A stretch of DNA of 42,700 nt from Schwartzia sp. (in: firmicutes). GTDB lineage: Bacteria; Bacillota; Negativicutes; Selenomonadales; Selenomonadaceae. The translations under genes were made by a program, and so were the position numbers. The notes beneath the pieces were generated by a model. That model searched no databases and had not been told where the DNA came from. It worked only from the letters and a program-made list of their open reading frames with translations. The stretch's first letter is position 1. Every line of letters begins with the position of its first letter. Below are positions 484 to 22,813 of the stretch, piece by piece. Location: contig JAFTAB010000177.1 of NCBI GenBank assembly GCA_017458745.1, forward strand, positions 1 to 42,700, read 5' to 3'.

Positions 484-630
484 TATCTGATGCTAACGGG
501 TTAATTCGACTGGATTCAGTTATTGGAGCCTCTTATGAGCAAAGCGAATTAGAGGCTCCTTAATGCATGGGGACGCGAAAGCGTCCATCGCAGGGAGTCT
601 AAAACTCCCACTGAATAAGTCTCGTTTTAT
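484..630 (+). repeat. hairpin-rich interspersed repeat, copy 1
   Basis: Member of the repeat family also seen at 4118, 6595, 12207, 26278 and 33999. It starts with a degenerate TCTGATGCTAACGGG, followed by AATTCGACTGGATTCAGT. Three hairpins follow, and the copy closes with ACTGAATAAGTCTCGTTTTAT. The hairpins are GGAGCCTCT/AGAGGCTCC (535-572), GGACGC-GAAA-GCGTCC (580-595) and GGGAG/CTCCC (597-609). The outer TTCAGT/ACTGAA halves can pair to close a multi-branch structure. No protein is encoded. Confidence 0.8.
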
Positions 631-660
631 TACCCGAGGAGAAAATGCCCGATATGTTAC

Positions 661-2290: not shown

Positions 2291-2307
2291 TGCAACAGAA
2301 TAAAATT

Positions 2308-2380
2308 TAGTGCCGCCGGGTACATACTGCGCTTGCCCCATTAGGCCACAGAAGGAGCACGCCGTATGCGCCCTTTTTTT
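2308..2380 (+). promoter_or_regulatory. structured leader with terminator stem, candidate guanidine riboswitch
   Basis: The leader of the exporter gene holds GCCGCCGGGTACATAC and, about 45 nt later, GTATGCGCCC followed by seven T. GGG(TA)CATAC and GTATG(CG)CCC pair to a terminator-like stem that ends just before the ribosome binding site, the layout of a transcriptional riboswitch. The gene behind it is of the guanidinium-exporter type, whose relatives are often controlled by guanidine riboswitches. It does not show the ykkC (guanidine-I), ACGR-hairpin (II) or class III signatures. The small class IV (mepA motif) is the best remaining candidate but was not verified. Confidence 0.5.
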
Positions 2381-2399
2381 ATTCCAAGGAGATATTTTT

Positions 2400-2848: not shown

Positions 2849-3331
2849 ATGGTTGTCAGACATTATGATCAGCAGGATTTGCAAGCAATGATTGCAATAT
2901 GGAACGAAATAGTGGGGGACGGCGTTGCGTTCCCGCAAGAAGAAATACTTGATTTGCATACAGGAGCGGATTTCTTTTCCGCTCAGAGTTATGCGGGCGT
3001 AGCCGAAGATGATGAGCTTGGCATTGTCGGGCTGTATATTCTTCATCCCAACAATGTCGGTCGATGCGGTCATATCTGCAATGCCAGCTACGCGGTAAGC
3101 TCATCCTGCCGCGGGAAACATATCGGCGAGGCTCTTGTAAAGGATTGCATTGAGCAAGCCAAGGCGATAGGGTTTGCTATACTGCAATTCAACGCTGTCG
3201 TGGAAAGCAATATTCACGCCAGGCACCTTTATGAGCGGCTGGGGTTCGTGCAAATTGGCACAATCCCTAAAGGGTTCAGAATGAAAGACGGGCACTTTGA
3301 AAATATATGCCCTTATTACTATATGCTATAG
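2849..3331 (+). CDS. GNAT family N-acetyltransferase
   Basis: A 160-residue acetyltransferase. Motif A appears as ASYAVSSSCRGKHIGEALVKD and motif B as NAVVESNIHARHLYERLGF, the classic N-x-x-A-x-x-L-Y-x-x-x-G-F pattern of GNAT enzymes. The start at 2849 follows GGGAGG by 7 nt; the frame extends to 2801 without a ribosome binding site. It lies 125 bp behind the exporter gene and runs the same way, but there is no evident promoter or terminator between them, so co-transcription is possible. The substrate is unknown. Confidence 0.88.
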   Translation: MVVRHYDQQDLQAMIAIWNEIVGDGVAFPQEEILDLHTGADFFSAQSYAGVAEDDELGIVGLYILHPNNVGRCGHICNASYAVSSSCRGKHIGEALVKDCIEQAKAIGFAILQFNAVVESNIHARHLYERLGFVQIGTIPKGFRMKDGHFENICPYYYML

Positions 3332-4117: not shown

Positions 4118-4265
4118 TACCCATTGCCTTATGGGTAAATTCGACTAGATTCAGTTATTGGAGCCTCTTATGAGCAAAGCGAATTAGAGGCTCCTGTATG
4201 CATGGGGACGCGAAAGCGTCCATCGCAGGGAGAATAAAACTCCCACTGAATAAGTCTCATTTTAT
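4118..4265 (+). repeat. hairpin-rich interspersed repeat, copy 2
   Basis: Nearly identical to copy 1 from AATTCGACTAGATTCAGT to its end, with the same three internal hairpins including the GAAA-loop hairpin. It carries an extra CCCAT/ATGGG hairpin (4120-4135) at its left. Its right end, read on the minus strand as ATAAAATGAGACTTATTCAG, supplies the TGA stop codon (4259-4257) of the macrodomain gene. Confidence 0.88.
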
Positions 4266-6530: not shown

Positions 6531-6607
6531 GTCTCATCTTATCGTGAAGTGACCCAATAAATTGCCGGATGACCCAATAAAAAGGCACGATACAATGAGA
6601 CTTATTC
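6525..6607. repeat. long imperfect inverted repeat flanking two 12-bp direct repeats
   Basis: Arms 6525-6546 and 6586-6607 pair with two mismatches and consist of the ATAAGTCTCAT end of the interspersed repeat facing its own mirror image. The 39 bp between hold TGACCCAATAAA twice (6550-6561 and 6570-6581). The left arm contains the TAA stop of rrf2. Confidence 0.75.
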
Positions 6608-6795
6608 AGTGGGAGTTTTTAGACTCCTGCGTTAGACTCCTGTGATGGACGCTTTCGCGTCCCCATGCATACAGGAGTCTCTAATTCGCTTTGCTCATAA
6701 AAGACTCCAATAACTGAATCTAGTATTGCCTAACGGGTGCTTATCTCCCGCTTTAGAAGGGGGAGTCTTAGCGCCCGTTAGCATCGGATGAAATA
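6595..6795 (-). repeat. hairpin-rich interspersed repeat, copy 3, inverted and most complete
   Basis: Runs opposite to copies 1 and 2. It begins ATGAGACTTATTCAGTGGGAG, contains the GGACGC-TTTC-GCGTCC hairpin (6647-6662) and the AATTCGCTTTGCTCAT segment, then CTGAATCTAG. It ends with a nested stem that includes CTCCCGCTT and the closing AGCGCCCGTTAGCATCGGAT. It is 201 bp and non-coding. It fills the gap between rrf2 and the convergent lysR gene and may terminate both. Confidence 0.85.
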
Positions 6796-21654: not shown

Positions 21655-21936
21655 CGTCGATATGGCAAAGGCGATGAACGGGAAAAGTACCATGTGTTTA
21701 GCCGCGCAGAGAGCCCCGTATGGTGCGAGGGGGTCGGGGAGATGCATGGGAAGTTCACCCGGGAGCTTCGCGCTGAAGCGTCGAGATGGCGTGTAGGCGA
21801 CGACGGCATCTCACCGTTAAATGAGAAGCCCATCGATGTTTTTTCATCCGTGGGATTGAGATGCCCGGTTTCGGGCAAATAAGGTGGTACCGCGAGCAGG
21901 CCTCGTCCTTTTATGGACGAGGCTATTTTATTTTTG
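21655..21936 (+). promoter_or_regulatory. T-box leader with Phe (UUC) specifier
   Basis: The T-box sequence AAGGTGGTACCGCG is at 21881-21894. A terminator follows (21900-21908 with 21915-21923, 9 bp, then T-rich). The Stem I features GATGAACGGGAAAAGTA, AGAGAGC and GGTGCGAGGGGG are in the usual order. On the 3' side of Stem I the segment GAAGTTCACCC presents TTC (21754-21756) as specifier codon followed by A, reading phenylalanine. Uncharged tRNA-Phe would stabilise the antiterminator and switch on pheA. The specifier was placed by eye. Confidence 0.92.
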
Positions 21937-21952
21937 GGAGTGACATATCATT

Positions 21953-22813
21953 ATGGTGATTGGATTCTTGGGCCCGGAGGGGACTCACAGCGAGGCGGCG
22001 GCCATGTGGCTCAATGAGCGCATGGGCAGGAGATCCGAGCTTCGGGCGTTTCCCGATATTTTTTCCGCTATACAGGCAGTGGAGAATGGCGAGATTGAGA
22101 GCGCGCTAGTGCCCGTCGAAAATTCTATCGAGGGCGCGGTCAATGTGACGCTCGACACGCTCGCGCAGAGCGAGAATATCTCCGTCGTGCGCGAGGTGGT
22201 GTGGGATGTCAGCAATTATCTCATGGGTCGCAATCCCTCCGCGGAAATCACTGCTATATACTCGCACCCTCAGCCGCTTGCCCAATGCCGCAGATTTTTG
22301 AAGGATCACTATCCGAATGCGAGGCTGATCGCCACGGCGAGCACTGCTGAGGCGGCGCGCATTGTCTCGTCGCCCGGCGCGGGTCGGGGCGGCGCGGCGG
22401 CGATATGCACCGCCAGGGCAGGGGCGATAAACGGGCTCGTGACCATCGCGGAGGACATACAAGACAGCAACTCGAACAAGACGAAATTCTATGAGCTGAG
22501 GCGGAGTCGGGCGGCGGAGCTGCCGATGGACGAGGCGGGCACCGCGCTCATAATTTTCCAGATCGACGGCGCGAAGTCGGGCGCGCTTTATGAGGTTCTA
22601 GGCGAGCTCGCAAAGCGCAAAGTGAACATGACCCGCATCGAGTCGCGTCCGCCTCGCGAGGGCATGGCAGGCTTCTATGTGTTCTTCGTGGATATCGAGA
22701 TAGAGCGCGGGCGTTCGCGTGAGCCGGTGGATGAGGCTATCGCCGCCATCAGGGAGAGAAGCCTGTGGGTGAAGGAGCTTGGGCGATACCCGAAGATAGA
22801 GGCAAGGCAATAA
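21953..22813 (+). CDS. pheA: prephenate dehydratase
   Basis: A 286-residue enzyme that converts prephenate to phenylpyruvate, the committed step to phenylalanine. The catalytic domain shows FLGPEGTHSEAA, VPVENSIEGAVN, SHPQPLAQCRRF and SNSNKTKFYEL, where the Thr of NKTKF is catalytic. From about residue 190 an ACT domain follows with the Phe-binding motif ESRP (TRIESRPPREG), so feedback inhibition by phenylalanine is expected. There is no chorismate mutase domain. Control by the Phe T-box agrees with the function. Confidence 0.96.
   Translation: MVIGFLGPEGTHSEAAAMWLNERMGRRSELRAFPDIFSAIQAVENGEIESALVPVENSIEGAVNVTLDTLAQSENISVVREVVWDVSNYLMGRNPSAEITAIYSHPQPLAQCRRFLKDHYPNARLIATASTAEAARIVSSPGAGRGGAAAICTARAGAINGLVTIAEDIQDSNSNKTKFYELRRSRAAELPMDEAGTALIIFQIDGAKSGALYEVLGELAKRKVNMTRIESRPPREGMAGFYVFFVDIEIERGRSREPVDEAIAAIRERSLWVKELGRYPKIEARQ

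Follow-up and report, generated by a model that had tools for sequence, protein, structure and literature searches.

A putative guanidine-IV-type riboswitch whose expression platform overlaps its first hairpin, before a predicted guanidinium exporter gene in Schwartzia

The leader and the genes behind it

The stretch of DNA analysed here, hereafter the window, comprises 42,700 nucleotides of a Schwartzia sp. contig. A leader of about 100 nt (2297-2399) lies directly 5' of a Gdx-type SMR gene (2400-2723). The elements of this region are as follows, with the evidence for each in brackets:

2262-2290, + strand: promoter-like site TTGACA-17-TATAGT, with TG before the second hexamer (11/12 matches)
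2310-2314, + strand: 5' strand GUGCC of P1, the anti-terminator hairpin (conserved; helix paired in the fused set)
2315-2318, + strand: P1 loop GCCG, of which GCC is the kissing strand (GCC/GGC or ACC/GGU covariation in 101 RNAs; compensation in L050)
2319-2323, + strand: P1 3' strand GGUAC, the segment common to the 5' strand of the terminator (overlap and folding)
2318-2380, + strand: intrinsic terminator, hairpin 2318-2373 and U tract 2374-2380 (sequence, fold, covariation)
2334-2359, + strand: upper stem of the second hairpin, 2334-2339 with 2354-2359, present in both states (two-sided changes in 4/6 pairs)
2341-2354, + strand: second-loop motif UUAGGCCACAGAAG, with kissing strand GGC at 2344-2346 (kissing covariation)
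2386-2392, + strand: ribosome binding site AAGGAGA (sequence)
2400-2723, + strand: Gdx-type SMR (SugE) transporter, 107 aa (profile matches, residues, solved relatives)
2849-3331, + strand: GNAT acetyltransferase, possibly co-transcribed with the SMR gene (profile matches)

A preliminary description of this DNA had pointed to a promoter, to a leader of about 100 nt containing GCCGCCGGGTACATAC and to a terminator-like pairing followed by seven T. All three were located: the promoter-like site as listed, GCCGCCGGGTACATAC at 2312-2327, and the pairing of GGG (2318-2320)-TA-CATAC (2323-2327) with GTATG (2364-2368)-CG-CCC (2371-2373), ahead of the T run at 2374-2380. Although its stated elements stood, that description overlooked the informative parts, which are a small hairpin (2310-2323) and the partner with which its loop kisses. 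In the window this hairpin, P1, reads GUGCC-GCCG-GGUAC, and the terminator stem begins at 2318, within the P1 loop. Six bases (2318-2323) are thus common to P1 and terminator, and since the entire 3' strand of P1 belongs to the 5' strand of the terminator, the two helices are mutually exclusive. Leaders with this arrangement are called fused below, and those in which P1 stands apart from the terminator are called separate.

The promoter score by itself is no proof, because the 900-base region that was scanned holds four promoter-type sites against a shuffle mean of 1.8; on reading the sequences, similar TTGACA...TATATT sites precede the leaders L004, L033 and L034. The segment 2297-2381 folds at -21.6 kcal/mol (z -0.54), an ordinary stability that is no sign of function, so that the case rests on comparison. 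The combination of an NCCG-loop hairpin, a compatible AGGY and a T run occurs at exactly one site on both strands of the 42.7-kb window; in 60 shuffles the mean was 0.12, with at least one site in six of them.

The SMR product matches PF00893, and SugE is its top NCBIfam model, yet under the curated cut-off (108 vs 126 bits). Among proteins of known structure, Gdx-Clo (6WK5) matches it best (E 5.6e-29; EmrE, 1.2e-12), and the translation has E13, W16, S42, Y59, W62 and the GIG fulcrum, each of them named for Gdx-Clo in the accessible text of PMC9574504. This best match and the presence of these residues, both read from the sequence, support a predicted guanidinium exporter and bear out the earlier Gdx-type assignment. 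The closest named SMR relatives come from Anaerovibrio lipolyticus and an uncultured Veillonellaceae genome. Between the SMR and GNAT genes (2724-2860), no promoter- or terminator-like site was found. A search of 13 relative loci, with limited flank at each, found no GNAT gene beside the SMR gene.

The SMR/GNAT region is flanked on both sides by a dispersed repeat of about 127 nt with stem-loops, present in the window at 505-632 (+), 4140-4265 (+) and 6590-6724 (-). Among the 40 genome matches listed for it, some 25 are nearly full length, at 84-100% identity, and it resembles a REP-like or small mobile element. Further along the window, a T-box leader (RF00230, 128.3 bits) at 21665-21913 (+) precedes an ORF at 21953.

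Relation to the guanidine-IV RNAs

Rfam 15 returned no guanidine class for the whole window at the gathering score, and no Guanidine-I, -II or -III match in 2230-2430 up to E 10; weak matches to SNORA5 and lncRNA models were discarded as chance. Of these classes, Guanidine-I alone was confirmed to be present in the library, through its detection at a Paraclostridium SMR locus (L204). Guanidine-I (ykkC) RNAs resemble the leader in being transcriptional ON switches acting via a terminator before SMR genes, but they differ in that their model, found at this control, has no match in the window. The preliminary description had counted the lack of an Rfam hit against a guanidine riboswitch. There is indeed no hit, but this is uninformative because canonical-looking guanidine-IV loci also returned nothing, while the Guanidine-I control was found; the Rfam 15 copy is apparently without the guanidine-IV class. 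A search of plasmid sequences for a named guanidine-IV reference gave none, and the one SMR locus inspected (L204) carries Guanidine-I.

Relatives were compared directly, and the leader proved conserved before SMR homologues of several genera. The leader block GUGCCGCCGGGUACGUC ... UUCCAUUAGGCC..AGAAGGAACA ... GACGUACCC-U precedes the SMR gene in a genome of the same genus (G001), in G016 and in RUG13093, as well as in three Anaerovibrio lipolyticus genomes, and a diverged form stands before the SMR gene in another family (G039). A covariance model of seven fused leaders (R1) gave matches in 32 of 380 class genomes at E <= 0.1 and recovered SMR leaders outside its training set (G151, G280, G157, G245, G338 and G341). 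Its weaker matches, which precede MATE, PPOX-like, EamA-like and SMR genes, have the same core with P1 apart from the terminator. A second model (R2) was built from eight separate-P1 relatives and no fused sequence, its training set having itself been found with R1; built without the window, it recovers it at 34.3 bits (E 2.5e-5 for the genome). At E <= 0.01, R2 matches 75 of 380 class genomes and 22 of 398 phylum genomes, its canonical members having been identified in this analysis rather than drawn from a published alignment. No fused form was seen outside the class among the R1 matches examined from 378 phylum genomes, where strict filters may lose weak ones. A loose core pattern, which matched 190 of the 398 phylum genomes, was too unspecific and was discarded.

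The R1 and R2 searches yielded 120 tabulated matches, eight of which (L121, L194, L195, L198-L201 and L203) were set aside for want of a kissing-loop motif or because they are other terminators; L066 and L067, one degenerate and one a chance match, were left untabulated, and a few weak R1 matches that had no locus were left aside. The folding classification covers 102 RNAs, 17 fused and 85 separate, and the kissing count covers 101, leaving out nine without a strict P1 and two without AGGY. As seven of the 17 fused RNAs trained R1 and eight of the 85 separate ones trained R2, these counts depend in part on the models, and the 17 include L053, likely a decaying copy. L053, which has a broken kissing pair and a polA-like gene downstream, and L066 are apparent decaying fused leaders of one genus.

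Among the genes that follow the family are those for SMR, MATE, PPOX-like, radical SAM and GNAT-like proteins and for one DUF1989 protein; two loci appeared PnuC-like and three GNAT-like by eye, one fragment of each being scanned with no Pfam match. Fourteen of the 17 fused RNAs precede SMR genes. The accessible text of PMC7736828 and PMC9788692 reports MATE, PnuC, GNAT and sugE as guanidine-IV gene contexts. In Anaerovibrio lipolyticus (L033, L034), the SMR gene (3001-3315) is followed about 32 nt downstream by a PPOX-like gene of the FRxMRR family. That family has its own separate guanidine-IV-type leader in other genomes, and the two observations together suggest an enzyme family linked to guanidine. 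Guanidine-IV-type leaders also occur before a radical SAM gene in Negativicutes (L058, L111, L113, L175, L179, L187 and L192).

Like guanidine-IV RNAs (GGAM-1, mepA motif), the window leader has two hairpins, a loop-loop pseudoknot, a second hairpin that is a Rho-independent terminator, AGGY...GAAG residues in the second loop, a sugE/Gdx gene downstream and an expected ON switch by read-through. The guanidinium KD reported for the class is about 60-260 micromolar. For the L. lactis RNA, the available text of PMC7736828 names G62, U63, G66, U67, A71 and G72, with the G62C mutant impaired and binding abolished by G72C; our link to the published RNA rests on the residues and spacing given there. 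With the numbering set by this spacing, G2345, C2346 and G2351 would correspond to G66, U67 and G72. G66 and G72 would then be kept, the base at position 67, where the tested L. lactis RNA has U, is a C matched by a G in the P1 loop, and position 62 is a U. All six named residues are in register in seven of the 85 separate RNAs. Among the 16 fused RNAs with a readable loop, five have no G at the 72 register, with length changes in four. In L044, from the same genus, an A replaces the essential G72 in an otherwise intact leader, perhaps through decay or altered specificity. On structure, loop residues and gene context, the window leader is predicted to be of the guanidine-IV kind; the guess of a small class IV (mepA-like) switch in the preliminary description is supported by the held-out R2 model, the pseudoknot, the loop residues and the gene contexts.

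A guanidine-IV-derived switch for another ligand, like the Gd4v variants or the orphan GGAM-6, is in our estimate unlikely. In the published accounts accessible to us, Gd4v RNAs occur in Mitsuokella jalaludinii and Dialister succinatiphilus, where those tested gave no guanidine response, and the GGAM-6 RNA of Selenomonas ruminantium showed no guanidine binding in initial tests. The C at position 67, and the A at 72 in L044, point the same way. However, Gd4v RNAs, which share the overall fold and the kissing contact, are described there as carrying an extra hairpin on the terminator, as never preceding sugE and as binding guanidine weakly or not at all, whereas most fused RNAs precede SMR genes and the window combines a 14-nt loop (2340-2353) lacking the extra hairpin, a Gdx-type SMR gene at 2400 and intact G66 and G72. 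GGAM-6, described from eight sequences of one species, shares with our leader the Selenomonas lineage, a downstream sugE and terminators, a likeness drawn from its description only. Identity of the two seems unlikely because Anaerovibrio lipolyticus also has the fused form, while GGAM-6 is listed for a single species. Were they identical, the lack of binding could be due to the use of a full-length construct caught in the terminator fold.

Overlap of the first hairpin with the terminator

The kissing contact is conserved with compensation: the first P1-loop base and its second-loop partner form G-C in 46, A-U in 45 and G-U in 10 of 101 RNAs, and A-C in none, these RNAs being related and hence not independent events. 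One fused RNA (L050) has the compensated A-U pair. Across the 17 fused RNAs, 95.8% of anti-terminator cells are paired, with two-sided changes at five pairs (as high in 1 of 500 shuffles) and in 14 cells (as high in none of 500). The terminator is paired in 94.9% of cells, with two-sided changes in nine of its 16 pairs, a number reached in none of 500 shuffles. Covariation among relatives, on which the preliminary description had made its guess depend, is present in both folds. The P1 helix taken alone, paired in 95.3% of cells of the fused set, shows only one-sided changes, with none of its five pairs altered on both sides, as expected for a helix whose 3' strand has a second partner in the terminator, though changes of this kind are weaker evidence. 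GUGCC is present in 9 of 17 fused RNAs and other forms mostly keep the helix. P1 rests mainly on the conservation of its 5' strand, the family-wide helix and the exclusivity of the two folds.

It is very improbable that the leader is a ligand-free intrinsic terminator or attenuator conserved through the common descent of SMR operons. Such an element could have an ordinary folding energy and a terminator that covaries well by itself, as observed, but GUGCCGCC (2310-2317) lies outside the terminator stem and, in 17 RNAs that come from several families, is nearly invariant or shows compensation. The absence of A-C from the kissing pair and the unrelated gene families that follow the same core also speak against it.

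In folding predictions for the lengthening window leader, the mean P1 probability lies at 0.61-1.0 between nt 27 and nt 75; it is at least 0.91 at 15 of the 17 sampled lengths, the dips being 0.61 (nt 48) and 0.75 (nt 54). As the terminator completes, from nt 78, where the U tract begins, it is about 0. Between the stage before terminator completion and the U tract, the median P1 probability of the 17 fused RNAs goes from 1.0 to 0.0, all 17 ending below 0.2, whereas in the 85 non-fused RNAs it stays at 1.0, with none below 0.2 and 81 above 0.8. Forcing P1 gives a fold 3.5 kcal/mol worse than the terminator fold in the window and 6.3-11.0 kcal/mol worse in 16 relatives (kissing energy excluded); all of this folding is predicted without pseudoknot energies. 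The clean split between the two forms is that of the folding classification, the estimate of the terminator start being rough with A-rich linkers, for which positive linker values vary.

Overlaps of 4-8 nt between P1 and terminator recur ahead of radical SAM genes (L052, L058) as well as in two clades of the SMR tree. In a tree of 37 SMR proteins encoded 3' of these RNAs, the 13 with fused leaders are split between two clades; given the well-supported branches, a minimum of two changes is needed, and one change suffices in no bootstrap tree. Five genomes (G016, G280, G039, G338 and G341) have both a fused and a separate copy. We lean towards the view that guanidine-IV comprises two wirings, the fused one having arisen at least twice and being able to share a genome with the separate one; an exchange of leaders between genes could mimic such a repeated origin.

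The same data bear on whether the leader is a guanidine-IV switch working by the published steric mechanism, with an incidental overlap of P1 and terminator. The kissing loop and upper stem are as in canonical RNAs, which would suit this explanation. We nonetheless consider it improbable, as the predicted P1 is fully lost on terminator formation in 17/17 fused and 0/85 non-fused RNAs and as the overlap is recurrent in the SMR clades and radical SAM contexts just described.

The window thus departs from published guanidine-IV RNAs in having the 3' strand of P1 within the 5' strand of the terminator, where the published P1 is separate. In the accessible parts of PMC7736828, PMC11611296 and PMC12186494, the class is described without such an overlap, the separate P1 being a described property rather than a stated requirement. 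The overlapping expression platform appears to be what is new here: the literature examined has no account of it, and no description of the fused form was found in the open-access literature searched. Fused sequences may already be present, unremarked, in the published GGAM-1 alignment.

A predicted ON switch and its implications

We favour, with a probability of roughly 75%, the interpretation that this leader belongs to the guanidine-IV-type riboswitches, that its expression platform overlaps the sensor hairpin and that it would act as a kinetic ON switch for a predicted guanidinium exporter. RNA polymerase would make P1 (2310-2323) first, followed by the upper part of the second hairpin. 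Guanidinium would then bind at the kissing contact between GCC 2315-2317 in the P1 loop and GGC 2344-2346 in the second loop, and hold P1. With P1 held, GGUAC would be kept out of the terminator, allowing read-through into the Gdx exporter gene. Without ligand, the 3' strand of the terminator, GUAUGCGCCC, complete at 2373, would strip the shared strand from P1, and transcription would end in the U tract. The conservation, the covariation, the exclusivity of both folds and the relation to guanidine-IV on which this model draws are computed results, whereas guanidinium as the ligand, the stabilisation of the kissing state by it and the ON direction are inferred.

According to the literature accessible to us, guanidine-IV has been singled out for its non-overlapping aptamer and expression platform, and how binding prevents termination is still argued. 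The published wiring lets sensor hairpin and terminator exist side by side, with the ligand exerting its effect through strain; the fused one would be a conventional, kinetically decided anti-terminator. Genomes that harbor both forms would allow a direct comparison of the two wirings. Because the terminator is favoured by the 3.5 kcal/mol (window) and 6.3-11.0 kcal/mol (16 relatives) given above, a full-length fused RNA should sit locked in the terminator fold, and binding assays on it could give false negatives. For the Negativicutes, the leader marks a predicted guanidinium export gene that Rfam leaves unflagged.
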